From NCBI GenBank assembly GCA_037349105.1, contig JAYJMM010000124.1, positions 4,386,001 to 4,450,000 on the forward strand: 64,000 nucleotides of DNA. Reading direction: 5' to 3'. The translations under genes and the position numbers were made by a program. Shown here one piece after another: positions 1-64,000 of this stretch. The notes under the pieces were generated by a model. It saw only the letters and a list, made by a program, of their open reading frames with translations, did not search any database and was not told the origin of the DNA. The DNA comes from Limnomonas spitsbergensis (Eukaryota > Chlorophyta > Chlorophyceae > Chlamydomonadales). The number at the start of each line of letters is the position of its first letter. Position 1 is the stretch's first letter.

Positions 1-529
1 TGCGACGGTTTTCAGCCAGGATCCTCTCCCCGCCATGGTAACAGTGCGGACGCGGCCTAGGCCCATGCCGCACTGTTCCCTTGACCTTCACGCCCGGCAG
101 GGCGCGGTCTTTCTTTCTTCCTTTCACTCCCCGTCCCCTGCTGTCACCTTCGGACGGATTTCAGCCAGGATCCTCTCCACGTGCACCAGCCAGAGTGGGA
201 TCAGCGCGTCGTTCGTTCCCTGTTCCCCAGCCTTCATCCCTCCCCGTCCCCTGCTGTCACCTTGCGATGGTTTAGTGTTTAGGGTCTAACCCTTAACCCT
301 AAACACCAAACCCAAAACCCCTGCTGTCACCTTGCAACAGTGTAGGGTTAAGGATTAAACCCTCAAGCCCTGCTGTAACCTTGCGAAGGTTGTCAGCCAG
401 GATGCTCTCCAGGTCATGGTAACAGTTCTAACACGGCCTAAGCCCATGCCGCACTGTTCCCTTAACCTTCACGCACCTGCGGGGCGCAGTCTTTCTTATT
501 TTCTTTCACTCCCCGTCCCCTGCTGTTAC
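1..529. repeat. Degenerate copies of the ARGLU1 exon-5/donor junction inside the following intron
   Basis: The true junction (about 511-566) reads, on the plus strand, CCGTCCCCTGCTGTTACC then TTGCGACGGTTTTCAGCCAG. Variants of this exon end plus splice donor recur at 1-30, 131-185, 245-275, 318-340 and 371-419. Some keep GGTGACAG or GGTTACAG donor-like sequence. They alternate with two copies of a short inverted-repeat element (34-98 and 416-478). No separate gene is seen. Confidence 0.6.
34..98 (+). repeat. Dispersed repeat family C (hairpin element), copies 1 and 2
   Basis: AACAGTGCGG (40-49) and CCGCACTGTT (68-77) form a perfect 10-bp inverted repeat around 18 nt, followed by CCCTTGACCTTCACGCCCG. 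A second copy lies at 416-478. Diverged copies are at 21795-21870 and 30800-30862. Confidence 0.65.
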
Positions 530-2651
530 CTTGCGACGGTTTTCAGCCAGGATCCTCTCCAAGTCATCCTGCCGCCGCCGCGCCTCGTCCTGCTCCCGCC
601 GCTTTCGCTCCAGTAGCGCCGCCTTCTCACTATCCAGCTGTGTCGTAACGCTCTCCTCTAGCTTGGCACGCTCCTCCTTGAGGCGAGTCTGGGACACGCA
701 CACACAAACACATTTACTTTGAGATAAAAACACACACGCACAAACACATGTCATCATGACATGACACGAGTTCATGACATTGAGTTTGAAACATTAATTA
801 AATGAGCCCCCCAAGGTTCTCTCCAGGCAAGAGAGGGGGGCAGATCAGCCGCCGTCCATGTAAGAGAATAGGCAGGCTGATGGGCATTCCCTCCAGGCAT
901 GAGACGGGAAGAGAGAAAGGTGACCTTGGGTACGAGTAAAGTGTGACTTAAGGTGAGCCCGGTGTTGTCTGGGGTGGGTGAAGTGTGACCTATAGCAGGC
1001 TCACCTGAATCCTCGTTTGCACCTCCTCCGACTCCATCAGCTCCGCAACCCTCTTCTTGGCAGCCTCGTCAATGTTCTTCACCACCTCCTCCTCGAGGAC
1101 GGCCAGCTGCGCTGCCTTGGCCGCGCTGATGACACCGCCCAGCACCACATGAGACCGGCCCTGAGCATTCTCCCTGGTGACAGTCCAAACACCAACACTG
1201 AAATGTGAAAACAATATGGAAATGCTCGTCTGATTACAAACCGACAACAGGGATGCACCCTCGTAGCAAGGGTGCCAGGTCGCAGGCTCCCTGCACACAA
1301 TTTCCCCTAAGGCCTAGAACCATAGCCTAGAACTCTCCGTGGCCCAAAAGGACCCTTAAGCCTGCAAGGCCCCTAACCTACTGCGTGCATATCCCCTAAA
1401 GCCAGCGAGTACCCTAACCTTTGCCCTAAAAGACACCTAAAGCCAGCAAGACCCCCAACCTATAGCTTGAAAGTCCCCCTAAAACCAGCAAGTACCCAAC
1501 CAGCAAGTATCCTATCCTAAAGCGTGCCGTCCCCTACAGCGTGCAAGTCCCCTTTAGCCAGCAAGTCCCCTGACCCACACACTGCAAGTACCCTAACCTA
1601 CAGCATGCAAGTCCCCTAAAGCCTGCAAGTCCCCTGACCCACACACTGCAAGCACGGTACCCTAACCTACAGCATGAAAGTCCTCTAAAGCTTGCAAGTC
1701 CCCTGACCCACACCCTGCAAGTACCCTAACCTACAGCATGCAAGTCCCCTAAAGCCTGCAAGTCCCCTGACCCACACCCTGCAAGTCCGCTACACCGCTT
1801 AAGTCCCCTTAAGCCTGCAAGTCCCCTGACCTTCACCCTGCAACTTGGCTGAATTGCATGTTTTCACCTTGAAGCGTCTTCATCTTTGCCACCTGTCCGG
1901 CGGTACTGCCTGCCAGGTGCAAGTGGGGCAACGCAGCTGAGTCAGCAAGCAATTCGAAAACAGCGCAGCTTGCCCTCTCGTGCACCTTTTCCATTGCCTA
2001 CCTGGCCGCCATTGGGAGGCAGCTGGGTGACCATCACTGGCCTGATTGGGACATGACCATGGCCCCAAAGCAGTGGGGACTGCTGCAACGGGCCCTCCGT
2101 CTGATAGTAAACATGCGCATACGCTATCAGCGCTCGTGTCACCGGCTGTAGGCCGGTCAAGCTTTTGTTACAATCACTTCAGTGGTGGCTGTCAGCCCAG
2201 GGGGCCCCCCACAGGTAATTTTGCGGCGCATTACGAAAACAGTGCTGCATGGCAGTCCCATGCACAGGGTCTGCCATGCGGCACTGTTTCATGTATGCGT
2301 TCTCTCACAACCACATGCATGCATGAATGCCGCATGAATGCCAGTGAGACAGCCGCGAATGTTGAAATGAAAACTAAGTATTTTGACACAGCTCTCAGGC
2401 GCTGAGCTGCACCTGTTCTTTGCAGCTGGCCGACGACCCGAGGAGGGCATTCCACTCGCGGCGCGAGCTGTCGCGGGGCTCTCGGACCTCCTGCCCGACT
2501 TGTGCCTCCTTGAAGGCGATCTGCGTAAGCACAACGCCATCATCCCGAAGAAGCAACCGTCAGGGACAGTACCCATGTGAAGGCATGCGTGCCATGCAGC
2601 AACAGCAGCAGACAACGACACTTGCCTTGAGCGCGACCTAGATCTCGCCAT
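530..2651 (-). CDS. ARGLU1: ARGLU1-like splicing co-regulator, 5' part of gene (5 exons, runs off left edge)
   Basis: Exons on the minus strand: 2651-2626, 2520-2413, 1905-1868, 1111-1005 and 688-530. Phases join cleanly and give 146 residues. The N-terminus is MARSRSRSRSPSRRHKSGRR, a short SR domain. After a linker comes a charged coiled coil containing EEEVVKNIDEAAKKRVAEL, SEEVQTRIQTRLKEER and QDDLERILAENRRK. This follows the block order of human ARGLU1 (EELERILEENNRK) and its plant homologues, nuclear proteins that couple transcription and pre-mRNA splicing. Exon 1 ends AAG|GCAAGT, a GC-AG intron. The C-terminal third must lie left of the window. Exon 3 is only 38 nt and the acceptor of exon 4 was chosen by phase, so these two are the least certain. 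The gene is divergent from the SAM carrier at 4293. Copies of the 3' end of exon 5 with its donor lie at 1-420. Confidence 0.8.
1330..1850. repeat. Imperfect ~62-bp tandem repeat in ARGLU1 intron 3
   Basis: Motifs such as AGCATGCAAGTCCCCTAAAG and CTGACCCACACCCTGCAAGT alternate about eight times with substitutions and small indels. The array lies between exons at 1868 and 1111 and has no coding potential. Confidence 0.6.
2237..2289. repeat. Near-perfect 19-bp inverted repeat (hairpin) in ARGLU1 intron 2
   Basis: Left arm AAACAGTGCTGCATGGCAG (2237-2255) matches the reverse complement of the right arm (2271-2289) at 18 of 19 positions around a 15-nt loop. The outer bases (ACAGTGC/GCACTGT) match those of the short dispersed inverted-repeat family at 34-98. 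Confidence 0.55.
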
Positions 2652-4292
2652 GCTGCGCCAAACTATCTGATTGCCTGCTGTGAGCACCAAGGAAGGAGGT
2701 AATAAAAAACGCCGTATCGTGGCTTGACGATGTGCGTTGGCCTTCCCGCTCCTCCTACTTCACACTCAACGACCTGCTACTGCCAGGTTGCCAAGCCTCG
2801 GCAGGCGCACCAATTCTTGCTACTGCGACGAACACCAGGCAGCTCATTTGATCGCATTGCATCGATTCCCAATCCCGAACTATTTACTCGATTATCACTT
2901 TTCGACGAAGAGACGCATCAGAGTTTGCCCGCGTGTCATCATCCGGCCTACGCTTCCCGGGGGCGATCGTTGCCTACCTGGCGCGCACACACGGGTCGGC
3001 CGCAGCACCCGTTCCTAGGCTGCGCCTCTCAACCTCCGGGTAAATCCAGAAGCGCAGAGTTCCAGGGTGACGCTCGGTGGTCATCACCATGGTGCACAAT
3101 CACGTCCCAGGTGGGAAAAAGGCCCCCTGGGGCACTCTCAGTAGGCCGCCCATGCGACTCCCGCATGGCGCATACACCAGGCGGGGGACTGAGGACTGGG
3201 GGGGCACCCTCACTAGGCCTCCCATGCCCCCCCTGCATTGATCCTACCGTTCCTTCAATGCGCGCCAAATCCAAAGTGCGCCAAATCCACCTTGGGCGGC
3301 CATCACCGTGGCGCACGCCCATACCCCAAGTGGAATTGGGGGCTGGAGGGCACCCTCGCCTGGCCTTGGGTTCATTCCCATGCCACTGGTTTATGGTTCG
3401 GTGTTGGTTAATTGCCTAGGGGTTGCTGTTATTCAGGTGTCTGTCCTGGTTTATTTAGTGCTCAAACTGGTTTGCGGGCACCCGTCCCATGCGTCAAATG
3501 TAACGGTCTGCTGGACTGTAAAAACTACATAGGCCTCCCATACAACCGCGGCATGCACCCCAGTAGTAACTCAAACGTGCGCATAACTAACATTAAGGCT
3601 GTCGGGCGGCCACTACTGGGTCGATGGGGAGCCAAACGTTGACCGGCCCACAGCTAGCCTAATGCAAATAACGTTTTAGATCAAACCTAAAACCTAACAA
3701 GCCTAAAACAACCTCGTGAAGGTTGCAACTAGCCCCCAAAAGTATATATAAATTACAGAATGAAAATATAATAAAGTATCTAAAATGACTGTGGCAACCT
3801 GCACAACCTCGTTCATATGCACAAAAGCACCGCTTTCATGCAAAATAATCGTCTCGTACAGTACTTCCTGCAACTCTGAAGCATGCTGTACATCGCCCAT
3901 GCAATGTTAACTTCTGCGGCTGACCTATGTGTGCGGCCGTTGCTCTACGGCAGGGATGCACCACCTGCTGCTATGCATGTGTAAGGCTGGATGCACACGG
4001 CCTAATCCTCATTAGCCTATGAGGGTTAAGGTAATGCGTATAAGCTAACCCTCGTAACCTTATGAGTATAAAGCTCATGCGTATAAACTACTCGACACTT
4101 TTGAGGCCGCCTCACGCCTCAACCTGCCCACCTCTGTGCAAACCCGGTGGTGCCAGATGCGTCAGTGGCGCTGCACACCACCTTCACACCACCTCCACAC
4201 CATCTTCACACTACCTTCACACAGCATTGGCCTGGCTAAGCCGCTCACCCTGCTTCCTCGCAGATCCTCACAGAGCTAGAAACCCCCTCTTC
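2652..4292. other. Intergenic region between divergent ARGLU1 and SAM carrier genes
   Basis: About 1.6 kb without a convincing gene. 3040-3380 holds degenerate tandem segments with shared phrases such as GGCCATCACCGTGG / GGTCATCACCATGG and GGGGGCACCCTCACTAGGC. A stretch at 3600-3650 resembles a dispersed repeat (GATGGGGAGCCAAACGTTGACC). Promoters of both genes should lie here, but no TATA or other site is clear enough to place. A 231-codon frame at 2724-3419 has no recognisable domain and is judged spurious. Confidence 0.4.
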
Positions 4293-7200
4293 ATGATCGC
4301 CTCAACGTCGGAGACCAAGCAGCAGCAGCAACAACATGCAACTGCAACAGCGCCACCTATCGGCCCCCCGGCTGCATGGCGGTTTGTGGCGGGAAACCTG
4401 CTGGCGGGAGCGATATCTGGGTGTGCCGTTGAAGCGGGTGAGGTCCACTGTGGGCAATAAGGCGTCACTTATCTTCCAGGACGAAGGCCTTGTATCAGGA
4501 ATGAACATATCACATGCAGAAAAGTGCCCATGCGTAGAATCACCCATGCATAGAATTACCCATGCATGATATTACCCATGCATAGAATCACCCATGCATA
4601 GAATCACCCATGCATAGAATCACCCATGCATAGAATCACCCATGCATAGAATCACCCATGCATGGAATTACCCATGCATAGAATCACCCATGCATAGAAT
4701 CACCCATGCATAGAATCACCCATGCATAGAATCACCCATGCATAGAATCACCCATGCATAGAATCACCCATGCATAGAATCACCCATGCATAGAATCACC
4801 CATGCATAGAATCACCCATGCATAGAATCACCCATGCATAGAATCACCCATGCATAGAATCACCCATGCATAGAATCACCCATGCATAGAATCACCCATG
4901 CATAGAATCACCCATGCATGGAATCACCCATGCATGGAATCACCCATGCATGGAATCACCCATGCATGGAATCACCCATGCATAGAATCACCCATGCATA
5001 GAATCACCCATGCATAGAATCACCCATGCATAGAATCACCCATGCATAGAATCACCCATGCATAGAATCACCCATGCATAGAATCACCCATGCATGGAAT
5101 TACCCATGCATAGAATCACCCATGCATGGAATTACCCATGCATAGAATCACCCATGCATAGAATCACCCATGCATAGAATCATTCATGCATATAATCACC
5201 CATGCATAGAATCACCCATGCATAGAATCACCCATGCATGGAATTATCCATGCATAGAATCACCCATGCATAGAATCACCCATGCATGGAATTACCCAGG
5301 CGTAAAACCACGTATGCATAAAACCACCCAGACATGGAATAACGCATGCCTTAACCCACCCATGCATGGCATCATCCATGCATAGAATCTCCCATGCATA
5401 GAAAGCTCATGCATGGGATCTGAAATGTGCAGTATCACCCATGCACAGAGCCACCCATGCGTATAAATACCCATGCATACATTTTTTTATGTACATAGCC
5501 GCCCATGCGGCCATGCATGCCCTTGGTCTTTGCCCTGCCTACCTATGCATTGCGATTCTGATGCACAGCAGCCCCATGCCCCCACCCAACGGCCACCCTC
5601 CATCCTGCTTGCAGCACTGTACCCCATCGACACCGTCAAGACCCGGATGCAAGCCATGATCGGAGGGGGGGGCTTGAAAGCGCTCATCCAGTCGGGTGGC
5701 GGGAAGGCTTTGTATGCGGGTGCGTTGTAACATGGAGCTGCAGGGGGGCTTAGAGACTTGGTAGGAGGGGCAGTGTCTCAAAAGCGCTCTTCCAGTCGGG
5801 TGGCGGGAAGGACTTGTCGGGTGCGTCGTGATGTATAATTGCGAAGGCGCTTAGGGTCTTAGGTCGTGGGACATGAGCCTCATATACAGGTATGACCCGT
5901 GTATTGATCCAGTCGGGTGGCATTTTCGGTTCACACCTCTGACACCCCCCCCCTCGACAACTGTCCCCTGTAGGCATGTGGATCCCCCCCTTCCTTCAGC
6001 ATTCAGGGTTATCCCCTCTCAGTTTCTCACACACCTTCCCCTGGTCGATTTTGCTCCCTGGATATGTGGGGGGACCTCCTGGGTGTTTAGGATCACGCCT
6101 TCTCACACACCTTCCCCTCATCCTCCCTGTCCTGCAGGTGTGTGGGGGAACCTGCTGGGCGTGGCCCCCGCGTCCGCCCTCTTCATCTCGGTGTACGAGC
6201 CGGTCAAGGGGCAGGTCCAGGGTGCCATGCCGCGGGACAGGCAGTACGTGGGTCCTCTGGTGGCTGGCGCGGCGGCAGGGCTGGTATCGTCTTTCATCAG
6301 GTGGGCAACAAAGCGGAGTGGACAGGGCTTAGGGTTATGGGTTGAGGGTTGGTATCTTTGGCCATGAGGTGGGCAACAAACCGGGCTAAGGGTAAAGGGT
6401 TGAGTGTTGAGGGCTCTAATTTTGTTTTCATCAGGTGGGCAACAAAGTGGGCTTAGGGTCGAGGGCTCAAGGATAAGGGTTTAGGGCTGAAGGCTGGTAT
6501 CTTCTTTGATCAGGTGGGCAACAAAGAGGGGGGAAGAGGGCTTAGGGTCAAGGGTTTAGGGCTGAGGGCTGGTATCATCTTTCATCAGGTGGGCGACAAA
6601 GCGGGGGAGGTGAGGGTCAAGGGTTGAGGGTTGAGGGCTGGTATCATCTTTCATCAAGTGGGCAACTAAGAGGAGGGGAGAGGGTCAAGGGTTTAGGGGA
6701 GAGGGTTGAGGATTGAGGCTTGAGGGCTGGTATCCTCTTTCATCTGGTGGCCAACAAAGAGGGGGGAGAGGGCTTAGGGTCAAGGGTTGAAGGTTGAGGG
6801 CTGGTATTCTCTTTCATCAGGTGGGCAACAAAGTGGGCTTAGTGTCAAGGGTTTAGGGTCAAGGGTTTAGGGATGAGGGCTGGTATCTTCGGTCATGAGG
6901 TGGGAAACAAAGTGGGTTGAGGGTCAAGGGTTGAGGGTTGAGGGCTGGTATCATCTTTCATCAGGTGGGCAACTAAGAGGAGGGGAGAGGGTCAAGGGTT
7001 TAGGGGAGAGGGTTGAGGATTGAGGTTTGAGGGCTGGTATCCTTTTTCATCAGGTGGGCAACAAAGAGGGCTAAGTTCTGTTTGCGAATTTCTATACTAT
7101 TATTAAGGTGTGAAGCCCTGAAACCAAACCCTACACCCGCAAAGGCCCTAGGACGATGGCTCTTTCATGAAAGGGGCATCGAGCAGAGCTTAGGCTTTGG

Positions 7201-10200
7201 TTTTCAGATGGAGGGTCTGGTGCGGGCTATATCCATGACATTAAGTGGGGTAAGCTGAAATAATGTGGGGGTCAGCTGAAATAAAAAGAGGTCGGCTGAA
7301 ATAAAGTGAGATCCGCTGAAATAAAGTGAGGTTGGCTGAAATAAAGTGAGGTCAGCTGAAATTAGCTTTGCTATCCACCAGGGTGCCCGCATAGGGGGTC
7401 AGGTGCACAACACAACACAAATGTGTACCCTGAGGTGTGGGCGAAGCCTAAACCCTGAGGTGTGGACCAAGCTTAAACCCTGAGGTGTGGACCAAGCTTA
7501 AAGCCTGAGGTGTGGACACAGCTTAAAACCTGAGGTGTGGACATAGCTTCAAACAGAACAGCTTTGCCCCCCCCCCTCCGTGCGAGTGGCCTGAACTGTG
7601 CCCTAAAGGCAGCTTCCTGCTTAACTAATCGGGTCACTCGGGCAGACTGCCTCGCATGCGCTCGTTACAAAAATAGGTGACTTGAGGCCTGGATGCAGCT
7701 GAATAGCTGATCATGCATGGCTGATCATGAATAGCTGAATAGCTGAAAAGCTGAATTGCTGAATAGCCGATCATGAAACGATGCTGCACCTCTAGGTGGC
7801 CAGGTGCACACTCAACTTTAAGTGAGGTGTGGATGCAGCTGAGGTGTGGATGCAGGTGTGGATGCAGCTGTGGATGCAGCTGAACGTAACGAGCTTTGCA
7901 GCTCAGGGTTAAGGGTAAAACCCGAAACCCTTAACCCGAAACACGCTTTTTCAACTCAGGGTTTAGGGTTCGGTTAAACCCTAAACCCTAAACACGCTTT
8001 TGCACCTCAGGGTGCCCACGGAGGTGATCAAGTCGAGGCTGCAGACCAAGGAGTTCCAGGGGCCACTACAGGCGGTGAGTGATGGTGGCCATAATCATGT
8101 CATTACGTGGGATCTTGTTATGGGAATGTGTGAGATGGAGTGGCGGCCACAGATATGTAACTGATATGTAGCTGAAGCCCACCCAAAATAGCATTGCCAT
8201 ACCCACTTGCAGATGTAGCTGATATGTAGCTGAGGCCCCCCAAAATACCGTCCACTTCGTGGAGGCCCAATCAAAATAGCATTGCCATACCTACTTGTAG
8301 ATGTAGTTGATATGTAGCTGAAGCCCACCAAAAATAATATGGTCATATCTACCTGCAGATGTAGCTGATGTGTAGCTGAATCCCACCCAAGATAGCATTG
8401 ATATATCTACTTGCAGATGTAGCTGATATGTAGCTGAAGCCCACCAAAAATAGCATTGATATATCTACTTGCAGATGTAGCTGATATGTAGCTGAATCCC
8501 ACCAAAAATAGCATTGATATATCTACTTACAGATGTAGCTGATATGTAGCTGAATCCCACCCAAAATAGCATTGCCATACCTACATGCAGATGTAGCTGA
8601 TATGTAGCTGAATCCCACCCAATTCAGGACAATATCTTGCCCTTCTGCTGATCCAGCTGATATGTAGCTGATGCACTCCCCCAATAACAGTTTCATGTAC
8701 CTCTTATAATGTAGCTGTTATGTAGCTGACAATCACAAATAGCAACATTGCCATGCCACGCTGCAGGTGCGCTCCATCCTGACACACGAGGGGGTGCGAG
8801 GCCTCTTTGCAGGCTACGGCGCGTTCCTGTTACGGGACCTGCCGTTCGACGCGATCGAGTTTGTGACCTATGAGCAGGCAAGTGTGGGTGCCGCACGCCC
8901 ATGTGCGTGTCGCAGACGCCAGGTTTTCCAGGGTTGGGCGGCCGGCCTCATACCTTGTAAAGTACAAAGAAAAGAAAAGACGTCGAAAGTCTGGACGAGG
9001 ACCGTCGTCCGTCAGATATCGTTTTTCACCAAGCCAGCCAGGTTCACGAGCTGTTGCTTAGCGGCCTATTGGGTGGTTGCCATGCATCGCATGGTGCACA
9101 TGCAACCCTGATTCCAATGCTCTGCCACCACATGCTTCTCAGCTTAAGCGCGACAGGTAATCGTGATGCAGATTGCAGACGTGAAAAGTGTGGACGAGGC
9201 CCCTGTGTCAGAGATCGTTTTCACCTAGCCAGCCAGGTTCACACGCAGTTCATAACAGGCCGATTGGATTTTGTGCCGTGAAACCCCAGACGCACGAGCA
9301 AATCCTATTATTAACGTCAAAGTAAACTCTCAACCATAAACCCTGACTCACGTACTGACCCTCTTTTCAACGAAAATTGAACCCTGAATCCACTTTTCTG
9401 CCGCTGCATGCTTCACAGCTGAAGCACAGCAGCCAAACATGGGCGGGGCGAGAGCTCAACTCAGGAGAAACGTCCATTATAGGGGCCATGGCAGGGGGCT
9501 TCACTGGTGAGCGCTTGGCTCCTGTTTCCATCCGAGTTTCCCCGCAATAGCTAATAAAGAAAGAAAAATATACACCCTGGGGTATATCGTTATATGATAA
9601 TGACTGTTTTTGGAACTACCGATGCGGCCCACAGCACCTGCCTGATAAGGGGTGCCTGTCGCCATCCGAGTTTCCCCCCAAAATCAGCTCTGGAGAACAT
9701 CCTTAGTTGTAGGGGCCATGGCAGGGGGCCATCACAAGTGAGCGTGTTGCTCCTGTTTCCATCCCTGTTTTACCCCAATAAGGAGTGTCTGTTTCAATCC
9801 GAGTTTCTCCCCAAACTCAGCTCTGAGCAACTGCCGCAGTTGTAGGGGTCTTGGCATGGGGGCCCATCACAGGTGAGCCAGATTTGCTTCCCCACTCCCT
9901 CTCTGCTTTTGTACTGTCGTGTCTTCGCTCGGCTGTCTGTGTGTCCCTTGATTTGCCTCAAGCCCTTTTTGCATGCACTTTGATCCATGGATTTTCCTGG
10001 AACCCTACACCCTCCACCCTTAAAACTTGCACCCTGAACACTTCACTCTAATTACGACCAGAATCATAAAACCAAACCCTGAACCCTGAATATCGCCCTG
10101 AACCCTAAATCCTGCACCCTGAACGCCCGCTCTGGCTGCGATGCTTCCCCCTTGTGCAGGCATCGTGACCACGCCCCTGGACGTGCTTAAAACCCGCTTG

Positions 10201-10449
10201 ATGACCCAGGGCGCGTCGGGGCGGTACAGCAGCCTGCTCAACGCCACCGCGACCATTGCGCGCGAGGAGGGATGGTCGGCCTTCATGCGAGGCTGGCAGC
10301 CGCGCCTGATCTGGATCTCGATGGGCGGCTTTGTCTTCTTCCCGGTGCTCGAGGCCACCAAGAAGGTGGGTGTTCATACCAGGGGGGGGAGTGTGTTCAT
10401 ACCTGTGCTCCATACCATGAGTTCATGTGGGGCTGGCAGCCGCGCCTGA
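4293..10449 (+). CDS. SAMC: S-adenosylmethionine carrier, mitochondrial carrier family (SAMC / SLC25A26 type)
   Basis: Exons: 4293-4437, 5615-5719, 6138-6300, 8011-8074, 8767-8877, 9419-9506, 10160-10449; all phases agree and give about 321 residues. It is an inner-membrane exchanger of SAM for S-adenosylhomocysteine. The three carrier repeats each show the P-x-D/E-x-x-K-x-R signature: YPIDTVKTR (residues 51-59), VPTEVIKSRLQ (from 139) and TPLDVLKTRL (from 230). The blocks PASALFISVYEPVK, GYGAFLLRDLPFDAIEF and VTTPLDVLKTRLMTQG follow Arabidopsis SAMC1 closely and set it apart from other carriers. Exon 5 ends GAGCAG|GCAAGT, a GC-AG intron. The C-terminus is uncertain: reading past ATKK (10365) ends at TGA 10447-10449 at a normal family length, but GTGGGT there could also be a donor to a further exon. 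Introns are loaded with copies of the gene's own splice junctions. Confidence 0.92.
4503..5440. repeat. 17-bp satellite in SAM carrier intron 1
   Basis: About 50 tandem copies of CCCATGCATAGAATCAC, with occasional GGAAT or TTACC variants. Each unit carries the palindrome ATGCAT. The unit is not a multiple of three and is not derived from the flanking exons. Degenerate copies continue to about 5515. Confidence 0.9.
5720..6137. repeat. Copies of exon-2 donor and exon-3 acceptor regions in SAM carrier intron 2
   Basis: 5775-5830 repeats the end of exon 2 and its donor (AAAGCGCTCTTCCAGTCGGG, then GGCGGGAAGG and GGGTGCGT); a shorter piece (ATCCAGTCGGGTGGCATTTT) lies near 5905. 6060-6095 (GATATGTGGGGGGACCTCCT) is a degraded copy of the start of exon 3, preceded like the real one by CTCACACACCTTCCCCT. 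Confidence 0.65.
6301..7070. repeat. Array derived from SAM carrier exon-3/donor junction
   Basis: Exon 3 ends GGGCTGGTATCGTCTTTCAT CAG|GTGGGCAACAAAG. Similar strings (GGTATCATCTTTCATCAG then GTGGGCAACAAAG) recur about nine times, near 6430, 6500, 6575, 6650, 6735, 6810, 6885, 6955 and 7045, separated by telomere-like GGGTTTAGGG/GGGTTGAGGG filler. Most copies keep an intact CAG|GTGGGC donor. Confidence 0.8.
7200..7560. repeat. Short tandem repeats in SAM carrier intron 3
   Basis: 7230-7365 repeats a ~20-bp unit GGCTGAAATAAAGTGAGGTC. 7425-7555 repeats a ~30-bp unit with CCTGAGGTGTGGACCAAGCT. The rest of the intron to 8010 has AGCTGAATAGCTGATCATG pieces and CCCTAAACCCTAAAC tracts. Confidence 0.65.
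8140..8766. repeat. ~58-bp array derived from the intron-4 3' splice site
   Basis: About nine copies of GATGTAGCTGATATGTAGCT, then GAAGCCCACC and AAAATAGCATTGCCATACCT, ending acttgcAG. The real acceptor before exon 5 (8767) sits in the same context (AGCAACATTGCCATGCCACG then ctgcAG). Most copies therefore keep a branch-point-like tract and an AG acceptor. Confidence 0.7.
9660..9890. repeat. Two degraded copies of the SAM carrier exon-6 3' end and donor
   Basis: Exon 6 ends with GGGGCCATGGCAGGGGGCTT and a GTGAGCG donor. 9712-9748 (GGGGCCATGGCAGGGGGCCA, then GTGAGCG) and 9845-9880 (GGGGTCTTGGCATGGGGGCC, then GTGAGCC) copy it. Downstream words such as CTCCTGTTTCCATCC are repeated as well. Confidence 0.7.
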
Positions 10450-10512
10450 TCTGGATCTCGATGGGCGGCTTTGTCTTCTTCCCGATGCTCGAGGCCACCA
10501 AGAAGGTGGGTG
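10422..10512 (+). repeat. Tandem duplicate of the last ~80 bp of SAM carrier exon 7
   Basis: The block 10282-10372 is repeated 140 bp downstream almost unchanged (GTGCTC becomes ATGCTC, Val to Met), including the AAGAAG|GTGGGT donor-like end. The predicted stop at 10447-10449 falls inside the copy in a different frame. It may be a non-functional duplicate or an alternative last exon. Confidence 0.8.
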
Positions 10513-12393: not shown

Positions 12394-12454
12394 TAGGCGC
12401 CCACGCGGCCGAGCCTTTTTGAGCGGGGCCCAGAGGTGTAATGTCATTGACTGA
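12394..12454 (+). repeat. Dispersed repeat family A
   Basis: Core blocks GGCGCCCACGCGGCCGAGCC, TTTTTGAGCGGGGCCCAGAG and GTGTAATGTCATTGACTGA. The family occurs about 18 times in this window in both orientations. Confidence 0.75.
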
Positions 12455-15926: not shown

Positions 15927-16019
15927 CTGCGCACAAAAAGAGAAGAGCACTCGAAAGAGACAATGCAACGGCCAGGACAATGTCTGCAGATACTGGCGCC
16001 GCAGATTGCACTACCTACA

Positions 16020-20907: not shown

Positions 20908-20930
20908 TTCTGTCCACGTCGACAACGATT

Positions 20931-26799: not shown

Positions 26800-34741
<7,942 letters not shown>

Positions 34742-44218: not shown

Positions 44219-44261
<43 letters not shown>

Positions 44262-44271
44262 TCGCCCCCGC

Positions 44272-44302
<31 letters not shown>

Positions 44303-52655: not shown

Positions 52656-52870
52656 CTAGATCTTGAAGGGCTGGTACCCGTGCCCAGCCACCAGGTCGAG
52701 AATGAAGAAAGTGGCAGCCACGCGGCCAGGCGTCTGCAGAGGCAGCGGGAAAGAAAGGCTGTGATTAAAACAAGGGAAACAGGGGAGGGGGAGGCAGAGG
52801 GCAGGTGCCCGTAAATAAGCTATTTTAGGGGCAGCCACGCGGCCAGGCGTCTGCAGAGGCAGTGGAATAA
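52540..52870. repeat. Copies of both ends of the last ACT-gene exon
   Basis: The exon start (CTCTGCAG|ACGCCTGGCC, GCGTGGCTGCC on minus) is duplicated at about 52833-52863 with its acceptor and pyrimidine tract. The exon end including the stop (CCCTTCAAGATCTAGATC on minus) is repeated three to four times across 52540-52670. This is a rare case where a stop-codon region is copied as well. Confidence 0.75.
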
Positions 52871-55800
52871 GAAGGCTACGATCAAAACGCGGAGTGCGTG
52901 CTCCGTAAGTACCAGTGCCATACAATGACGCAATAATTCAGAAGTCCTGTCATGGCCACGACCTCCTGACAATCTCCCGACGTTAAAAGGTACACCAGAG
53001 TCAGGTTTTCAAACTGAACAGCAGCCGGCTGTGTGACTCACCAGCTTCTGCCCTCAACACTCAACCCCTAAACTCACCAGCTTCTGCCCTAAACCCTTAA
53101 CCCTGAACTCATCAGCTTCTGCCCTAAATCCCAAACCCTAAACCCACCAGCTTCTGCCCTCCCTTGGACAAAAGAAACCTGAAGATGCGCCCGTCCTTCT
53201 TGAAGTCATGGTCCTTGGAGACGCTGCTGCACGCGTTGTACTCCGCGTCGCCCTGGATGCACCCGTCATGGACCGTGACGCCGATAGCACTGATCACGGT
53301 GGCCAGGTCCAGCAGGTAGCCTGTTCACACCAGTGGGTTCACACATTGAGGGGGGGCCGCTCTGGGTTAAAAGACTGGAGATTTAAGCAGCCGGGTCACA
53401 CAGACAGAGGGACACGGCTTGATGCCAAAAGCGCTGATCACGGTGGCCAGGTCCAGCAGGTAGCCTGTTCACTCATTGATGGGGGCCGCTCTGGGTTAAA
53501 AGGCTTAAGGTTAAGTGGCCTGTTCACTCGGACAGAGGGGCACGGCTTGGGCTAAAGGGATTAGGGTTTACGTAGCCTAATCACAGAGAGTGGCAAAATT
53601 TGGGTTCAAAGGCTTAGGGTTTAAGAAGCCTGCTCACACAGAGGAGAACACCAATTTGGGTTATGGGATAAGGGATTCAATACCCTGCTCACAGACACAG
53701 GGGCGAGGCTTTGGTTCAAAGGCTGAGGGTTCAAGTCTCGGCTCACGCAGAGAGGGGCGCCGCCCTGGCTTCAGGGCTTAGGGTTTATGTCCCCTGTTCA
53801 CACATAAAGAGGGTTAAGGGTTCGTGGTTAAGGGGTGGTGGTTAAGGGTTTAGGGCTTAGGGTTTATGTCCCTGTTCAGACAGACAGAGGGTTTAGGGTG
53901 TATGGTTAGGGTTGAGGGCTTACAGTCTTTGTCCCCTGTTCACACAGACTGAGGGGGCGCCGCGTTGGATTCAAGACTTGGGGTTCACGTTCCTCCTTCA
54001 GCCAGACAGAGGGGAGCAGCATGAGGTATAGGGCTTGGCTTGTCTGCTTAAGGGTTTGTGCATCCTGGTCACATAGGCAGAGGGGGGCAGCTTAAGGCTC
54101 AGGGCTTAGGGTTCAGGGCTCAGGGTTGAGAGTTTAGGTACTCCGCTCACGCAGGCTAAGGGAGGCAGCTTAGGGTTTAGGGCATGGGCTGTAATGTCAA
54201 GGGTTTACATGCTCGAGGGGGGTAGCTTATGGTTAAGGGCTAATGGTTCAGGGCTTAGGGTTGTGAGTTTAGGTACTCCGCTTGCATATGCAGAGGAGGA
54301 CAGCTTAGGGTTTGAGGGTGAGGGTTTAAGGGGGAGGGTTTGAGGGTAAGGGTTTACATGCTCAGCTCAAATGGGCAGAGGGGGCAGCTTAGGGTTAATA
54401 ATGTAATGTTCCAGGTTCAGGTACCCTGTGCGACAAAACGCACATTCCGTGAACAAACTGCGGAGGTGACTTTGTCACAACAAACATATAAGGAGAGGTG
54501 GCGAGCGAAAGTGAGAAACCTGTGCCTAGCCTGGGACCGCAAAGGTCAGGGCACACAGTAGCCTGGGCCACAAACCTGTGGTTTGCAGTCATTCAAGACA
54601 AGATAGGACGTATAATCTAGCCAATTGTCATCATATGCGTGATCGTCCATCCCCCCCATCCCTTCAATGGTCATGCATGATCGTCCATCCATCCCCCATC
54701 CGTCACCTGGTCATATGCATGATCGTCCATACCCCCCCCATCCCTCACCTGGTCATATGCATGATCGTCCATACCTCCCCCATCCCTCACCTGGTCATAT
54801 GCATGATCGTCCATACCTCCCCCATCCCTCACCTGGTCATATGCATGATCGTCCATACCCCCCCATCCCTCACCTGGTCATATGCATGATCGTCCATACC
54901 TCCCCCATCCCTCACCTGGTCATATGCATGATCGTCCATACCTCCCCCATCCCTCACCTGGTCACATGCATGATCGTCCATCCCCCCCCATCCCTCACCT
55001 GGTCATATGCATGATCGTCCATACCCCCCCCATCCCTCACCTGGTCATATGCATGATCGTCCATACCTCCCCCATCCCTCACCTGGTCATATGCGTGATC
55101 GTCCATACCTCCCCCATCCCTCACCTGGTCATATGCATGATCGTCCATACCCCCCCCATCCCTCACCTGGTCATATGCATGATCGTCCATACCTCCCCCA
55201 TCCCTCACCTGGTCATATGCATGATCGTCCATACCTCCCCCATCCCTCACCTGGTCATATGCATGATCGTCCATACCCCCCCATCCCTCACCTGGTCATA
55301 TGCGTGATCGTCCATACCTCCCCCATCCCTCACCTGGTCATATGCATGATCGTCCATACCTCCCCCATCCCTCACCTGGTCATATGCATGATCGTCCATA
55401 CCCCCTCATCCCTCACCTGGTCATATGCATGATCGTCCATACCCCCCCATCCCTCACCTGGTCATATGCGTGATCGTCCATACCTCCCCCATCCCTCACC
55501 TGGTCATATGCATGATCGTCCATACCTCCCCCATCCCTCACCTGGTCATATGCATGATCGTCCATACCTCCCCCATCCCTCACCTGGTCATATGCATGAT
55601 CGTCCATACCTCCCCCATCCCTCACCTGGTCATATGCATGATCGTCCATACCCCCTCATCCCTCACCTGGTCATATGCGTGATCGTCCATACCTCCCCCA
55701 TCCCTCACCTGGTCATATGCATGATCGTCCATACCTTCCCCATCCCTCACCTGGTCATATGCATGATCGTCCATACCTCCCCCATCCCTCACCTGGTCAT

Positions 55801-58800
55801 ATGCATGATCGTCCATACCTCCCCCATCCCTCACCTGGTCATATGCATGATCGTCCATACCTCCCCAATCCCTCACCTGGTCATATGCATGATCGTCCAT
55901 ACCTCCCCCATCCCTCACCTGGTCATATGCATGATCGTCCATACCTCCCCCATCCCTCACCTGGTCATATGCATGATCGTCCATACCCCCCCCATCCCTC
56001 ACCTGGTCATATGCATGATCGTCCATACCCCCCCATCCCTCACCTGGTCATATGCATGATCGTCCATACCTCCCCCATCCCTCACCTGGTCATATGCATG
56101 ATCGTCCATACCCCCCCCATCCCTCACCTGGTCATATGCATGATCGTCCATACCTCCCCCATCACTCACTTGGTCATATGCATGATCGTCCATACCTGCC
56201 CCATCCCTCACCTGGTCATATGCATGATCGTCCATACCCCCCCCATCCCTCACCTGGTCATATGCATGATCGTCCATACCCCCCCAATCCCTCACCTGGT
56301 CATATGCATGATCGTCCATACCTTCCCCATCCCTCACCTGGTCATATGCATGATCGTCCATACCCCCTCATCCCTCACCTGGTCATATGCGTGATCGTCC
56401 ATACCTTCCCCATCCCTCACCTGGTCATATGCATGATCGTCCATACCTCCCCCATCCCTCACCTGGTCATATGCATGATCGTCCATACCTCCCCCATCCC
56501 TCACCTGGTCATATGCGTGATCGTCCATACCTCCCCCATCCCTCACCTGGTCATATGCATGATCGTCCATACCCCCCCCATCCCTCACCTGGTCATATGC
56601 ATGATCGTCCATACCTCCCCCATCCCTCACCTGGTCATATGCATGATCGTCCATACCTCCCCCATCCCTCACCTGGTCATATGCATGATCGTCCATACCC
56701 CCCCATCCCTCACCTGGTCATATGCGTGATCGTCCATACCTCCCCCATCCCTCACCTGGTCATATGCATGATCGTCCATACCTCCCCCATCCCTCACCTG
56801 GTCATATGCATGATCGTCCATACCCCCTCATCCCTCACCTGGTCATATGCATGATCGTCCATACCCCCCCATCCCTCACCTGGTCATATGCGTGATCGTC
56901 CATACCTCCCCCATCCCTCACCTGGTCATATGCATGATCGTCCATACCTCCCCCATCCCTCACCTGGTCATATGCATGATTGTCCATACCTCCCCCATCC
57001 CTCACCTGGTCATATGCATGATCGTCCATACCTCCCCCATCCCTCACCTGGTCATATGCATGATCGTCCATACCCCCTCATCCCTCACCTGGTCATATGC
57101 GTGATCGTCCATACCTTCCCCATCCCTCACCTGGTCATATGCATGATCGTCCATACCTTCCCCATCCCTCACCTGGTCATATGCATGATCGTCCATACCT
57201 CCCCCATCCCTCACCTGGTCATATGCATGATCGTCCATACCTCCCCCATCCCTCACCTGGTCATATGCATGATCGTCCATACCTCCCCCATCCCTCACCT
57301 GGTCATATGCATGATCGTCCATACCCCCTCATCTCTCACCTGGTCATATGCGTGATCGTCCATACCTCCCCCATCCCTCACCTGGTCATATGCATGATCG
57401 TCCATACCTTCCCCATCCCTCACCTGGTCATATGCATGATCGTCCATACCTGCCCCATCCCTCACCTGGTCATATGCATGATCGTCCATACCTCCCCCAT
57501 CCCTCACCTGGTCATATGCATGATCGTCCATACCCCCCCAATCCCTCACCTGGTCATATGCATGATCGTCCATACCTCCCCCATCCCTCACCTGGTCATA
57601 TGCGTGATCGTCCATACCTCCCCCATCCCTCACCTGGTCATATGCATGATCGTCCATACCTCCCCCATCCCTCACCTGGTCATATGCATGATCGTCCATA
57701 CCCCCCCCATCCCTCACCTGGTCATATGCATGATCGTCCATACCCCCCCATCCCTCACCTGGTCATATGCATGATCGTCCATACCTCCCCCATCCCTCAC
57801 CTGGTCATATGCATGATCGTCCATACCTGCCCCATCCCTCACCTGGTCATATGCATGATCGTCCATACCCCCCCCATCCCTCACCTGGTCATATGCATGA
57901 TCGTCCATACCCCCCCAATCCCTCACCTGGTCATATGCATGATCGTCCATACCTCCCCCATCCCTCACCTGGTCATATGCATGATCGTCCATACCCCCTC
58001 ATCTCTCACCTGGTCATATGCGTGATCGTCCACACCTTCCCCATCCCTCACCTGGTCATATGCATGATCGTCCATACCTTCCCCATCCCTCACCTGGTCA
58101 TATGCATGATCGTCCATACCTCCCCCATCCCTCACCTGGTCATATGCGTGATTGTCCATACCTCCCCCATCCCTCACCTGGTCATATGCGTGATCGTCCA
58201 TACCTTCCCCATCCCTCACCTGGTCATATGCATGATCGTCCATACCTTCCCCATCCCTCACCTGGTCATATGCATGATCGTCCATACCTCCCCCATCCCT
58301 CACCTGGTCATATGCATGATCGTCCATACCTCCCCCATCACTCAACTCACCTGGTCATATGCATGATCGTCCATACCTCCCCCATCCCTCACCTGGTCAT
58401 ATGCATGATCGTCCATACCTCCCCCATCCCTCACCTGGTCATATGCATGATCGTCCATACCCCCTCATCCCTCACCTGGTCATATGCATGATCGTCCATA
58501 CCCCCCCATCCCTCACCTGGTCATATGCGTGATCGTCCATACCTTCCCCATCCCTCACCTGGTCATATGCATGATCGTCCATACCTCCCCCATCCCTCAC
58601 CTGGTCATATGCATGATCGTCCATACCTCCCCCATCACTCAACTCACCTGGTCATATGCATGATCGTCCATACCTCCCCCATCCCTCACCTGGTCATATG
58701 CATGATCGTCCATACCTCCCCCATCCCTCACCTGGTCATATGCATGATCGTCCATACCCCCCCATCCCTCACCTGGTCATATGCATGATCGTCCATACCT

Positions 58801-61800
58801 CCCCCATCCCTCACCTGGTCATATGCATGATCGTCCATACCCCCCCCATCCCTCACCTGGTCATATGCATGATCGTCCATACCCCCTCATCCCTCACCTG
58901 GTCATATGCGTGATTGTCCATACCTTCCCCATCCCTCACCTGGTCATATGCGTGATCGTCCATACCTCCCCCATCCCTTCAATGGTCATGCATGATCGTC
59001 CATCCCCCCCCATCCCTCACCTGGTCATATGCATGATCGTCCATACCCCCCCCATCCCTCACCTGGTCATATGCATGATCGTCCATACCTCCCCCATCCC
59101 TTCAATGGTCATGCATGATCGTCCATACCCCCCCTATCCCTCACCTGGTCATATGCATGATCGTCCATACCCCCCCCATCCCTCACCTGGTCATACGCGT
59201 GATCGTCCATACCTCCCCCATCCCTCACCTGGTCATATGCGTGATCGTCCATACCCCCCCCATCCCTCACCTGGTCATATGCATGATCGTCCATACCCCC
59301 CCCCATCCCTCACCTGGTCATATGCATGATCGTCCATACCCCCCCCATCCCTCACCTGGTCATATGCATGATCGTCCATACCCCCCCCATCCCTCACCTG
59401 GTCATATGCATGATCGTCCATACCCCCCCCATCCCTCACCTGGTCATATGCATGATCGTCCATCCCCCCCCCATCCCTCACCTGGTCATATGCATGATCG
59501 TCCATACCTCCCCCATCCCTCACCTGGTCATATGCGTGATCGTCCATACCCCCCCCATCCCTCACCTGGTCATATGCGTGATCGTCCATACCTCCCCCAT
59601 CCCTCACCTGGTCATATGCATGATCGTCCATACCCCCCCCATCCCTCACCTGGTCATATGCATGATCGTCCATACCCCCCCCATCCCTCACCTGGTCATA
59701 TGCATGATCGTCCATACCTCCCCCATCCCTCACCTGGTCATATGCATGATCGTCCATACCCCCCCCATCCCTCACCTGGTCATATGCATGATCGTCCATA
59801 CCCCCCCCCATCCCTCACCTGGTCATATGCATGATCGTCCATACCCCCCCCATCCCTCACCTGGTCATATGCATGATCGTCCATACCCCCACCATCCCTC
59901 ACCTGGTCATATGCATGATCGTCCATACCTCCCCCATCCCTCACCTGGTCATATGCATGATCGTCCATACCCCCCCCATCCCTCACCTGGTCATATGCAT
60001 GATCGTCCATACCTCCCCCATCCCTCACCTGGTCATATGCATGATCGTCCATCCCCCCCCATCCCTCACCTGGTCATATGCATGATCGTCCATACCTCCC
60101 CCATCCCTCACTTGGTCATATGCATGATCGTCCATACCTTCCCCATCCCTCACCTGGTCATATGCATGATCGTCCATACCCCCCCCATCCCTCACCTGGT
60201 CATATGCATGATCGTCCATACCCCCCCATCTCTCACCTGGTCATATGCATGATCGTCCATACCCCCCCCATCCCTCACCTGGTCATATGCGTGATCGTCC
60301 ATACCTTCCCCATCCCTCACCTGGTCATATGCATGATCGTCCATACCCCCCCCATCCCTCACCTGGTCATATGCATGATCGTCCATACCTCCCCATCCCT
60401 CACCTGGTCATATGCATGATCGTCCATACCTCCCCCATCCCTCACCTGGTCATATGCATGATCGTCCATACCCCCCCCATCCCTCACCTGGTCATATGCA
60501 TGATCGTCCATACCTCCCCCATCCCTCACCTGGCTTAGGGGGCTCGCCCTTGATGATGATCTCGGTGAACTTCGGGTGGGCCACGTTGCTGACAAAGACG
60601 TTCTCCTGAGACCACTCCTCCTGCAGGTGACAATAATTGAATGGCATTGGGCATGTGCACGGTAGACAGGCAGGTCCACATACTAGACTCTTCCCTGATA
60701 TCCCAGCAGCCATAACAGCACTGCCGAGTTTCTTAGGGTTTAGGATTTAGCATAACAGCACTGCCGGGTTTCTTAGGGTTTAGGGTTAAGCATAACAGCA
60801 CTGCCGGGTTCCTTAGGGTTTAGGGTTAAGCATAACAGCACTGCCGAGTTTCTTAGGATTTAGGGTTAATTATAAGAGCACTGCAGAGTTTCTTAGGTTG
60901 AGGGTTGAGCATAACAGCACTGCAGAATTTCTTAGGGTTTAGGTCTGAGCATACCAGCACTGTCGAGTTTCTAAGGGTAAAGGGTTTTGCATAACAGCAC
61001 TGCCAAGCTTCTAAGGGTTAAGGGTTTAGCATAACAGCACTGCCGAGTTTCTTAGGGTTAAGGGTTAAGCATTACAGCTCTGCCAAGTTTCTTAGGGTTT
61101 AGGGTTACCATAACAGCACTGCAGAGTTTCGTAGGGTTCAGGGTTCAGGGTTTCGCATAACAGCACAACAGGGTTTATTTCAGGCATGCACCAACCTCCT
61201 TATTTGTTGGCTGCAAGCAGCCAAGCACGTGCCATGCTCATGCGCCTGCTCATACCCGAACTAACCTTCTTGCTCTTGGGCGGCAGGCATGTGAGGACAT
61301 GCTCATGCGCCTGCTCATACCCGAACTAACCTTCTTGCTCTTGGGCGGCAGGCATGTGAGGACATGCTCATGCGCCTGCTCATACCCGAACTAACCTTCC
61401 TGCTCTTGGGCGGCAGGCATGTGAGGACATGCTCATGCGCCTGATCATACCCGAACTAACCTTCTTGCTCTTGGGCGGCAGGCATGTGAGGACATGCTCA
61501 TGCGCCTGCTCATACCCGAACTAACCTTCCTGCTCTTGGGCGGCAGGCATGTGAGGACATGCCCATGCGCCTGCTCATACCCGAACCAGCCTTCTTGCTC
61601 TTGGGCGGCAGGCATGTGAGGACATGCTCATGCGCGTACTCATACCCGAACCAGCCTTCTTGCTCTTGGGCGGCAGGCATGTGAGGACATGCTCATGCGC
61701 ATACTCATACCCAAACTAACCTTCTTGCTCTTAGGCGGCAGGCATGTGAGGACATGCTCATGCGCGTACTCATACCCGAACTAACCTTCTTGCTCTTGGG

Positions 61801-63646
61801 CGGCAGGCATGTGAGGACATGCTCATGCGCGTACTCATACCCGAACTAACCTTCTTGCTCTTGGGCGGCAGGCATGTGAGGACATGCTCATGCGCGTACT
61901 CATACCCGAACTAACCTTCTTGCTCTTGGGCGGCAGGCATGTGAGGACATGCTCATGCGCGTACTCATACCCGAACTAACCTTCTTGCTCTTGGGCAGCA
62001 GGCATGTGAGGACATGCTCATGCGCGTACTCATACCCGAACCAACCTTCTTGCTCTTGGGCGGCAGGCATGTGACGACATGCCCATGCGCGTTCTCATAC
62101 CCGAACTAACCTTCTTGCTCTTGGGCGGCAGGCATGTGAGGACATGCTCATGCGCCTGCTCATACCCGAACTAACCTTCTTGCTCTTGGGCGGCAGGCAT
62201 GTGAGGACATGCTCATGCAAGCATTCTTGGAGGATCAATGCCGCCTCTTCAGACAGCTGCGTGGGTATTGGCGGGGGGTGGGTGGGGGGTGAGTCAGGGG
62301 GTGAATTAGGCAGCTGTGTGGGTATTGACGGGGGTGGGTGGGGGGTGAGTCAGGGGGTGAATTAGGCAGCTGTGTGGGTATTAACGGGGGTGGGTGGGGG
62401 CTGAGTCAGGGGGGTGAATCATACAGCAGCTGGGTAGTGGCAGAGGGAGGGGGTGTGAGCCAAGGGGATGAACCGGCATAGGCATTGGGGGGAGGTGACG
62501 AGGGGTACGGGGGTTGAGAGACCTAGGGGGGGGGTCAGCCAGACAATGGTGATGGGGAGAGGTGACAAAGGAGGTGGGGGAGGAGTGAGCTAGACCAGGG
62601 GCATGAGCTAGGGGGGCAAACCAGGCAATAGAGATGGGGGAGGTGACAATGGGTAGGGGGGATGAGTCAGGGGGGTTAGCAAGCGAAGGGTGATGGGCGG
62701 AGGTCATAGGGGGGGGGGGGGGGGGATGAGAGAGCTAGACCAGGGGGATGCGCTAGGGGGGCAAACCACTAAATCAGACAATGGCGATTAGTGGAGGCAA
62801 CAAGGGGAAGGGGGGGAAGATTCAGACGAGTGATGGGTAGGGTGGGGGGGGAAGGTGGCAGGTGGCAGGTGGCAGGGTTGACGGGGATGGTGGTGGGGTG
62901 GGGGCGGTCACAAGGGGTAGGGGGGTGGTTGAGCCAGGGGGATGCGGCATAAAGGGGGGGGGGGGGGGAGGTGGAGAGTGGCAAGTGGCAGGGGTGAGGG
63001 GGCATAGTGGATGGGCAAAGAGGGGAGGCATGGGGTGGGAGGCGGTGGAATAGGGCACAGGGGGCATCCATGCTTCCCCTCCTGTATCACACTTTTCATA
63101 CACTGAAATCAACCAATGAATGCGCCCATGGGGCTTTTGTTCAGCCTTTTCCTCACACTGCTGACCTGGCCGGAACGCAGGGTTCAAAATAAATCACCTC
63201 GTGGCGTTCGCAACAGATATCAACAGACTTCAACCAGATTCCAACCAGATGTCCAGGCTGCCATCGCTCTTTGCACGGCATTTCCATAGAAGAGGCGGAT
63301 CATATTCGTAGACTGAAGATGCTTACCATGCAGTGCTATAAATGTGGATTTCTTCACTCAAGAATGCACTCATGACTTCTTAAACGCACATCTTTGTGCA
63401 CAAAATGGACATGACATTCCCAGTTCCGACAGACACGGGTGTTGACGTTTGTAACTTCGTATTCTTGGGGGAGGGGAGCTTAATTTAAATGTATTTTAAA
63501 TTGCAACCAGGTTTCCACCTGAGTTGCGCAGAGTCCCAGGCTGCAGTCGCTTACCTTCCTTCCCTTGAGATCGGTGAGCCAGTAGACTTGCTCTGAAAAT
63601 CCTTCCACCACCTTCATGGTGGCATTCTGGGCCCGCACGTTGAGGC
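52656..63646 (-). CDS. Tandem ACT-domain protein, ACR11/ACR12-like (3' part; runs off right edge)
   Basis: Exons on the minus strand: 63646-63555, 62256-62176, 60620-60530, 53320-53148 and 52733-52656; phases agree. The first two exons give the end of one ACT domain (GLNVRAQNATMKVV, EQVYWLTDLKGRKLSEEAAL, ILQECLHEHVLTCLPP). The next three give a second ACT domain (KFTEIIIKGEPPKPGYLLDL, ATVISAIGVTVHDGCIQGDA, DGRIFRFLLSKGGQKL) and its last helix, TPGRVAATFFILDLVAGHGY. The order and spacing resemble the plastid proteins ACR11/ACR12 (DS12 type), proposed amino-acid sensors linked to glutamine synthetase. That assignment is by general resemblance and could be another ACT family. The N-terminus and any transit peptide lie to the right. 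The gene is about 11 kb long, mostly because of three arrays derived from its own splice donors. Confidence 0.75.
53030..53160. repeat. Copies of the ACT-gene exon-D/donor junction
   Basis: On the minus strand the exon ends AGGGCAGAAGCTG|GTGGGTTT. The plus-strand word CACCAGCTTCTGCCCT or CATCAGCTTCTGCCCT occurs four times (53037, 53075, 53109, 53144), spaced by CCCTAAACCCTAA-like filler. Two copies keep CTG|GTGAG. Confidence 0.75.
53321..54420. repeat. Degenerate array from the ACT-gene exon-D acceptor
   Basis: 53425-53500 (CGCTGATCACGGTGGCCAGG, TCCAGCAGGTAGCCTGTTCA) nearly duplicates the true exon start at 53287-53340. Further right, units of CTGTTCACACAGACAGAGGG and GGCTTAGGGTTTA continue about 14 times, increasingly telomere-like. 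Confidence 0.7.
54620..60536. repeat. 42-bp mega-array (~140 copies) derived from the ACT-gene exon-C/donor junction
   Basis: The plus-strand unit is CACCTGGTCATATGCATGAT+CGTCCATACCCCCCCCATCC+CT. On the minus strand each unit contains CCAG|GTGAGGGATGGGGG. The true exon C ends CCTAAGCCAG|GTGAGGGATG (60530) and runs straight into the array, so the donor neighbourhood is the source of the unit. Variation is mostly in the C run and a few bases (GCATGA versus GCGTGA). The 42-bp period keeps many frames open on both strands; none is a gene. Confidence 0.97.
60700..61165. repeat. ~40-bp telomere-like array in ACT-gene intron
   Basis: About eleven copies of CATAACAGCACTGCCGAGTT+TCTTAGGGTTTAGGGTTAAG, with drift. 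It lies between exon C (60620) and exon B (62176). Confidence 0.85.
61225..62222. repeat. 65-bp array derived from the ACT-gene exon-B/donor junction
   Basis: About 15 copies of GCATGTGAGGACATGCTCAT+GCGCCTGCTCATACCCGAAC+TAACCTTCTTGCTCTTGGGC+GGCAG. On the minus strand each contains the end of exon B, CCGCCCAAGAGCAAGAAG|GTTAGTTCGGG. The unit nearest the exon at 62176 is the genuine junction. Confidence 0.95.
62262..63060. repeat. G-rich low-complexity region (C-rich in the ACT-gene transcript)
   Basis: Degenerate units of GGGGGTGAGTCAGGGGGGTG and poly-G runs, upstream of exon B's acceptor. In the sense strand this is a long C-rich pyrimidine stretch. Apparent Pro/His-rich frames are artefacts. 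Confidence 0.8.
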
Positions 63647-64000
63647 CTGCATGGTCCATGCAAGCAAGGCAACGGCAAAGCATGCATGGGTAGCGTGATG
63701 ACCGGAACAAGGTGGTGGTGTCCAGATCGAAAAAAAGGGACGTGCGATGCTGTTGTTAAATATTCAAGGTGCATGAAACGGGGGGCGAATGGCTACAACG
63801 TGAAGTTCTGCAGATTGGCTTATTTGTGAAGACGCCGTGGATCTTAGCGAAAGTTTGGTTGCCACATGCTGAGCTGCAGGCTATACTGTTCATTGTGAAA
63901 CAACCTACCGCATGTTTGTCACCACAATTCTGAGGACCGCATGCGCCTCAACACATTCCTAAGGACCTCTCCGGCCATGTTTGACTCTTCAGTCCCAAGC
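63647..64000. other. ACT-gene intron with a possible further 5' exon
   Basis: On the minus strand 63958-63909 is a stop-free stretch bounded by CCTTAG and GCG|GTAGG that encodes AHAVLRIVVTN, similar to the first strand of an ACT domain. Its end phase (2) does not match the next exon (phase 1), so another exon or different limits would be needed. Confidence 0.3.

Follow-up and report, generated by a model that had tools for sequence, protein, structure and literature searches.

Intronic tandem arrays of Limnomonas spitsbergensis carry copies of exon edges and splice sites without evident targeting to the splice junctions

Tandem arrays in introns of the green alga Limnomonas spitsbergensis extend across splice junctions and thus contain copies of the neighbouring exon edge together with its donor or acceptor site. 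In the window, i.e. the whole analysed stretch of 64,000 nucleotides, 13 junctions of five loci have between 1 and 139 such copies in the adjoining intron, and as seven of them are donors and six acceptors, both intron ends are affected. Nevertheless, exon edges are repeated no more often than the remaining intron. In 57 introns, 22 of the window and 35 from elsewhere, repeats cover 35 of the 114 junctions (0.307; 13 donors and 22 acceptors) versus 0.317 of the interior positions. Most probably, the arrays result from minisatellites that grow at random intron positions, run across exon edges in some cases and are tolerated via use of the splice site attached to the exon.

The sequence-only reading of this DNA had reported exon-edge copies in the ARGLU1, SAM carrier, CFIm25, ELP2 and ACT loci and about 20 affected junctions. 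The copies are real in all five loci, but the number of junctions was somewhat high, as 13 were obtained by word counting and 17 of 44 lie within a repeated stretch according to a BLAST self-comparison. The examined set consisted of 22 window introns with 44 junctions plus two further donors (60530 and 530), and a 26-base word with up to 8 mismatches served to count copies at the 13 junctions, which were chosen after a first survey of the 44. Exon edges of ELP2 and the SAM carrier were located by tblastn with the Chlamydomonas eustigma orthologues (P0001 and P0121, respectively) and by aligning the exons one by one to algal proteins, among them those of C. eustigma, those of CFIm25 by alignment to human NUDT21, and those of the ARGLU1-like and ACT-labelled genes by reading frame and splice signals. 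For ELP2 as well as the SAM carrier, the best match among proteins is from C. eustigma, which is placed in the same clade as L. spitsbergensis in the accessible part of the genome paper (PMC11228838). The ARGLU1 assignment lies below the Pfam cut-off (20.4 vs 27 bits), and the ACT label refers to an 87-residue peptide encoded by three exons with no Pfam match. The exon-edge copies are not chance matches, because none of 3367 trials gave a match of donor-junction 20-mers to introns of other loci at up to 3 mismatches.

In the SAM carrier gene (forward strand), the array at 6279-7070 contains ten copies of the end of exon 6138-6300 (TCTTTCATCAG) with donor 6300, all of them with GT. Further downstream, a close second copy of the end of exon 10160-10365 and its donor is found at 10419-10505 (tblastn, 89% identity over 28 residues). 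ELP2 (forward strand) carries a second acceptor plus exon start at 39231-39430, present as one copy with intact AG (copied exon start at 39242, real one at 39409), and a 49-bp array at 39773-40788 with 18 copies of the end of exon 39409-39789 and its donor, 17 of them with GT. A tandem repeat inside this exon (39456-39677) extends a Pro/Gln-rich stretch of the protein; the orthologue from C. eustigma has a far shorter one. Further along ELP2, a 158-bp array (45066-45454) adds two extra copies of the acceptor and the first 20 bp of exon 45435-45718, a 40-bp array (46020-46271) holds six copies of the acceptor and exon start 46264, of which a longer copy is recognizable at the protein level at 45965-46018, and a 112-bp array (46404-46664) contains two degenerate copies of the exon end ATCAA with donor 46415.

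On the reverse strand, CFIm25 shows a duplicated acceptor plus exon start at 34009-34162 (one copy, ca. 128 bp upstream of the real start 34020), a 41-bp array at 32987-33317 whose seven copies, all with GT, comprise the donor at 33297 and the 21 bp of exon that precede it, and an 80-bp array at 28332-29650 with 16 copies of the acceptor region and the 19 bp at the start of exon 28350; most of these 16 lack the AG, which is kept in six (mean identity 0.77). The ACT-labelled gene, likewise on the reverse strand, has a 56-bp array at 62249-62436 with two copies of the acceptor and a few bases of exon 62256-62176, and a 65-bp array at 61233-62218 with 14 copies of the last 42-43 bp of the same exon and donor 62176, 12 of them with GT. 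Its largest array spans 5.9 kb (54631-60533) and is built from 42-bp units (CCAG/GTGAGGG, the slash marking donor 60530) in 139 copies, 135 with GT; only four exon bases are contained in this unit and in the word used for counting. Finally, four copies of the end of exon 688-530 and donor 530 lie at 100-530 in the ARGLU1-like gene (reverse strand). Two of the 13 junctions are weak, namely acceptor 62256 and donor 46415, with mean identities of 0.71 and 0.79, respectively. The claim of differing unit lengths is borne out, most arrays having units between 40 and 158 bp. Junction-spanning duplications of 86-176 bp also occur outside the window (1896-6025 of locus L024 and 4395-9562 of locus L022), in genes which we take to be pyruvate kinase-like and GyrA-like.

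Genes were predicted with a small home-made hidden Markov model of codons and splice sites, self-trained on 264 kb and then on 314 kb. As the model misplaced several edges beside window arrays, the main count was limited to checked introns, i.e. the 22 of the window, confirmed by homology or by frame and splice signals, and 35 from eight of the 25 predicted genes outside. The latter were picked by eye as conserved from the predicted proteins and presumably include GyrA-like, pyruvate kinase-like and ABC1 kinase-like genes; in five of them, the count drew on a subset of the predicted exons. One intron of L024 starting at 1284 was dropped because small exons in it are doubtful, which reduced the set from 58 to 57 and, as an array touches its predicted donor, lowered the junction count. 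The 57 do not include the last exons of CFIm25 and of the SAM carrier or the introns that follow donors 60530 and 530, and both of these donors have copies.

On this basis, the junction-to-interior ratio amounts to 0.97 (bootstrap 0.74-1.27), with a paired difference of -0.009 (sign-flip p 0.83), and varies over five criteria from 0.93 to 0.98 with bootstrap bounds between 0.67 and 1.30. The junction rate is below that of the interior in the window alone (0.386 vs 0.521) and slightly above it in the recognised genes outside (0.257 vs 0.188). Towards the exon, the repeat rate falls to 0.15-0.18 at 10-40 bp inside and to 0.012 at 60-120 bp inside, the last value coming from a repeat of this control on the 59 of 114 sides with an exon of at least 120 bp, as the 0.008 obtained without length condition overran the ends of short exons. 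As such insertions cannot be accommodated by coding exons, the arrays extend into them for no more than some tens of bases. The window and the sampled loci together provided 183 ab initio introns, in which 20-mers across the junction are copied in the same intron in 9-11%, those 20-220 bp inside the intron in 7-19% and those 50-100 bp inside the exon in 0-5%, with no peak at the junction.

Counting arrays instead of positions, 16 of 114 arrays outside the window touch a predicted junction versus 14.1 expected under random placement. Some of these 16 are doubtful: an L023 array was scored twice, for the introns on either side of an exon that is probably false, and two arrays (L025 and L031) are mostly situated in predicted exons. 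In the window, six of 33 arrays touch a junction when TRF is reduced to one row per array (4.6 expected, P 0.29), and nine of 33 (ca. 4.6 expected) in a manual count that adds SAM carrier 6300, ELP2 46415 and ACT 62256. The expectations derive from a model in which the first unit lands randomly on the intron after removal of its expansions, which gives a crude ancestral intron length. Moreover, 54 arrays lie wholly within the 57 introns and away from the junctions. Examples on the forward strand are a 16-bp unit repeated 60 times without any junction sequence (4527-5479) and a 58-bp unit repeated six times (8272-8622) in SAM carrier introns, and a 51-bp unit repeated 26 times that begins 91 bp past the donor in ELP2 (37609-38946); on the reverse strand, a 43-bp unit repeated 21 times (31732-32634) shares its CFIm25 intron with the 41-bp junction array. 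The generalization of the sequence-only reading, in which intron arrays across the window are copies of the adjoining junctions, is thus not supported, given the interior arrays, the equal rates of junctions and intron positions and the near-random number of touches outside the window.

In the most parsimonious interpretation, exon edges are affected because repeats pervade the introns. The data leave room for a mild excess at junctions, up to ca. 1.3-fold in the pooled count and ca. 2-fold in the window. Two hints of selection, both from small samples, concern the 15 junction-touching arrays of the 57 introns. The exon share of their unit is 0.29 on average compared to the 0.5 expected (KS p 0.028), and since this is below the value for uniformly placed seeds, some selection or positional rule may act. 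Furthermore, the unit length is divisible by three in only one of the 15 compared to 18 of the 54 interior arrays.

The repeat density of the window is not unusual for this genome. It contains 121 TRF rows and is masked to 34.7%, and TRF masks 31% on average (median 24%) of 25 loci of 10 kb chosen by round-number coordinates on contigs. Three of these loci (L030, L032 and L013) consist to 86-100% of tandem repeat in large satellite blocks with no predicted gene of 300 bp or more. The genome paper, in its accessible part, lists 0.10% satellites, less than 0.01% simple repeats and 22.78% unclassified sequence according to RepeatMasker and mentions TRF for masking; a tandem-repeat total for the nuclear genome was not found in that part (PMC11228838). 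The arrays are also local, as the sequence-only reading had proposed in terms of tandem duplication with a different unit per site and no common mobile element. Ten junction and four interior arrays were aligned to the remainder of the window plus 32 loci elsewhere (272 kb), which make up a small share of the genome. This search revealed a single 32-base match, which belongs to one of the ten junction arrays, and no match at E 1e-5 for the other 13; the longest junction array was represented by its first 2 kb. A mobile or introner-type element does not fit this result or the lack of donor-junction words in introns of the other loci sampled.

Two further repeat types were observed. Telomere-like TTTAGGG heptamers are in excess over an order-1 model in the window (54 vs 7.6 expected) and in 250 kb of sampled loci (102 vs 25 expected). 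In the window they occur at 17573-17726, 30260-30770, 46428-46664, 53036-53160 and 60710-61145, and they or close variants are found inside several array units; possibly, they are scars of break repair. A stretch of ca. 90 bp at 34-125 has at least 38 relatives with 80-88% identity on many contigs (40 of 769 candidates scored) and belongs to a family of short dispersed repeats.

The DNA itself shows the copies, how often junctions are repeated compared with the intron interior, how the repeats decay into the exons and what damage a wrongly used copy would do, and several explanations can be weighed against these results. The sequence-only reading had suggested that each copy keeps a usable site and that splicing may shift among copies without changing the protein, so that arrays might expand without opposition. 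Indeed, GT or AG is kept in 205 of the 222 copies (139 of them from the single array at donor 60530) and lost in 17. Use of the intact copies would, however, cause a frameshift and/or a stop in 203 of 205 cases, i.e. a frameshift plus stop in 128, an in-frame stop in 67 and a frameshift without stop in the insert in eight, leaving only two in-frame insertions. Even in the array of donor 60530, where the unit length of 42 bp is divisible by three, a single additional unit is enough to bring an in-frame stop, and the scarcity of units divisible by three among the touching arrays likewise speaks against interchangeable copies. Nor is there a consistent sign of selection for the site in the four arrays analysed, where GT does not clearly surpass the other unit positions in conservation: its value is 0.96/0.83 versus a mean of 0.94 in the 42-bp array and 1.00/0.87 versus 0.97 in the 65-bp array, and in the 49- and 41-bp arrays GT is invariant, a property shared by 23 of 49 and 31 of 41 unit positions, respectively. 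In-frame shifting was accordingly rejected. A neutral route could exist for units with AG/GT, where recursive splicing, entering at an inner copy and leaving from it again, would yield the regular mRNA, but growth by harmless shifting among copies appears very improbable to us. Presumably, the inner copies are ignored and the exon-attached site is used, and this choice would explain why the arrays persist despite their sites.

Duplication directed to junctions, with arrays seeded at exon edges e.g. by R-loops or paused transcription, would fit the 13 copy-bearing junctions in one window, the manual window count and the slightly raised junction rate in recognised genes elsewhere. It is, however, not needed and is at odds with the flat positional profile, with the pooled ratio, whose upper bound is 1.27 and does not exceed 1.30 for any of the four remaining criteria, and with the many wholly interior arrays and the touches outside the window; we therefore consider it unlikely. 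That the introns themselves were born by tandem genomic duplication of an exon stretch with AGGT, which would explain the recurring edges, is a model described for other organisms in the accessible text of PMC4974935, and AG/GT is indeed present in several units such as those of 41, 42 and 65 bp. This origin predicts mutual alignment of the donor and acceptor regions of one intron, which was found in 0 of 57 introns at E 1e-3, a test that would miss old, decayed cases; the model was rejected, and we give it hardly any credence. An assembly artefact, in which arrays are inflated or misplaced, might be suspected from the noisy PacBio reads underlying the assembly. It can practically be dismissed because the copies differ among themselves (mean unit conservation 0.93-0.97 in four arrays), the units differ between sites, and the read L50 of 32.9 kb given in the available part of the genome paper (PMC11228838) exceeds the 5.9-kb array.

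The favoured minisatellite spill-over would proceed as follows. A high rate of local tandem duplication in introns, by slippage, unequal exchange or break repair, would give birth to minisatellites and expand them at positions that are random relative to the exon edges. Whenever the unit duplicated first lies across a splice junction, the additional copies would land in the intron and leave the original exon intact, and the duplication would be tolerated provided that the spliceosome keeps using the copy joined to the real exon.

The arrays have the same anatomy as the amphioxus mirages, in which, according to the accessible portions of two reports, tandem units span the exon-intron boundary at either intron end, unit length is gene-specific and AG or GT is kept in many copies, as in the 205 mentioned above (PMC3087553, PMC3902484). 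PMC3902484 adds PGBD5 and cites TnC as mirage cases. Undisturbed splicing and length variation are described for the amphioxus arrays in these sources (PMC3087553, PMC3902484); the alga is represented here by the DNA of one assembly. Mirages concern single genes of a cephalochordate; new are the green-algal host, the rate, with about three in ten tested edges in repeats and up to 139 copies, and the test of this rate against the intron interior and hence against targeting. Titles and abstract openings in the open-licence literature disclosed no report of mirage-like arrays in an alga. With intron gain according to the AGGT model the arrays share duplication across AG/GT, but there the duplication makes the intron, and the two junctions are not alike in any of the 57 introns here. 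Introners, which form a single family spread over many introns, resemble the present arrays in being repeated sequence tied to introns. Their definition does not fit because the junction arrays, apart from the one 32-base match, are private to their introns within the sequence compared. From ordinary intronic minisatellites, with which they share unit sizes, imperfect copies and array growth, the arrays differ only in how frequently they overrun exon edges, and this frequency follows from the repeat density.

For the biology of the alga, the arrays illustrate how a genome fills its introns with tandem repeats. As junction-including repeats are no rarer than others in the pooled count, selection against decoy splice sites seems to be weak. 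Choice among near-identical splice sites has mostly been studied with constructed minigenes, and the arrays constitute a natural experiment on how the spliceosome chooses among many such sites, for which full-length transcript data of L. spitsbergensis are in print according to the accessible part of the genome paper (PMC11228838). In several cases the donor copies carry 20-60 bp of exon. Because dozens to ca. 140 donor copies would be passed over in one pre-mRNA, we tentatively suggest that splice-site choice in this alga may hardly depend on the local site sequence, and that exon context or position might commit the site instead. In a bolder version of this proposal, the AG/GT units would act as ratchet points for the stepwise removal of long introns.
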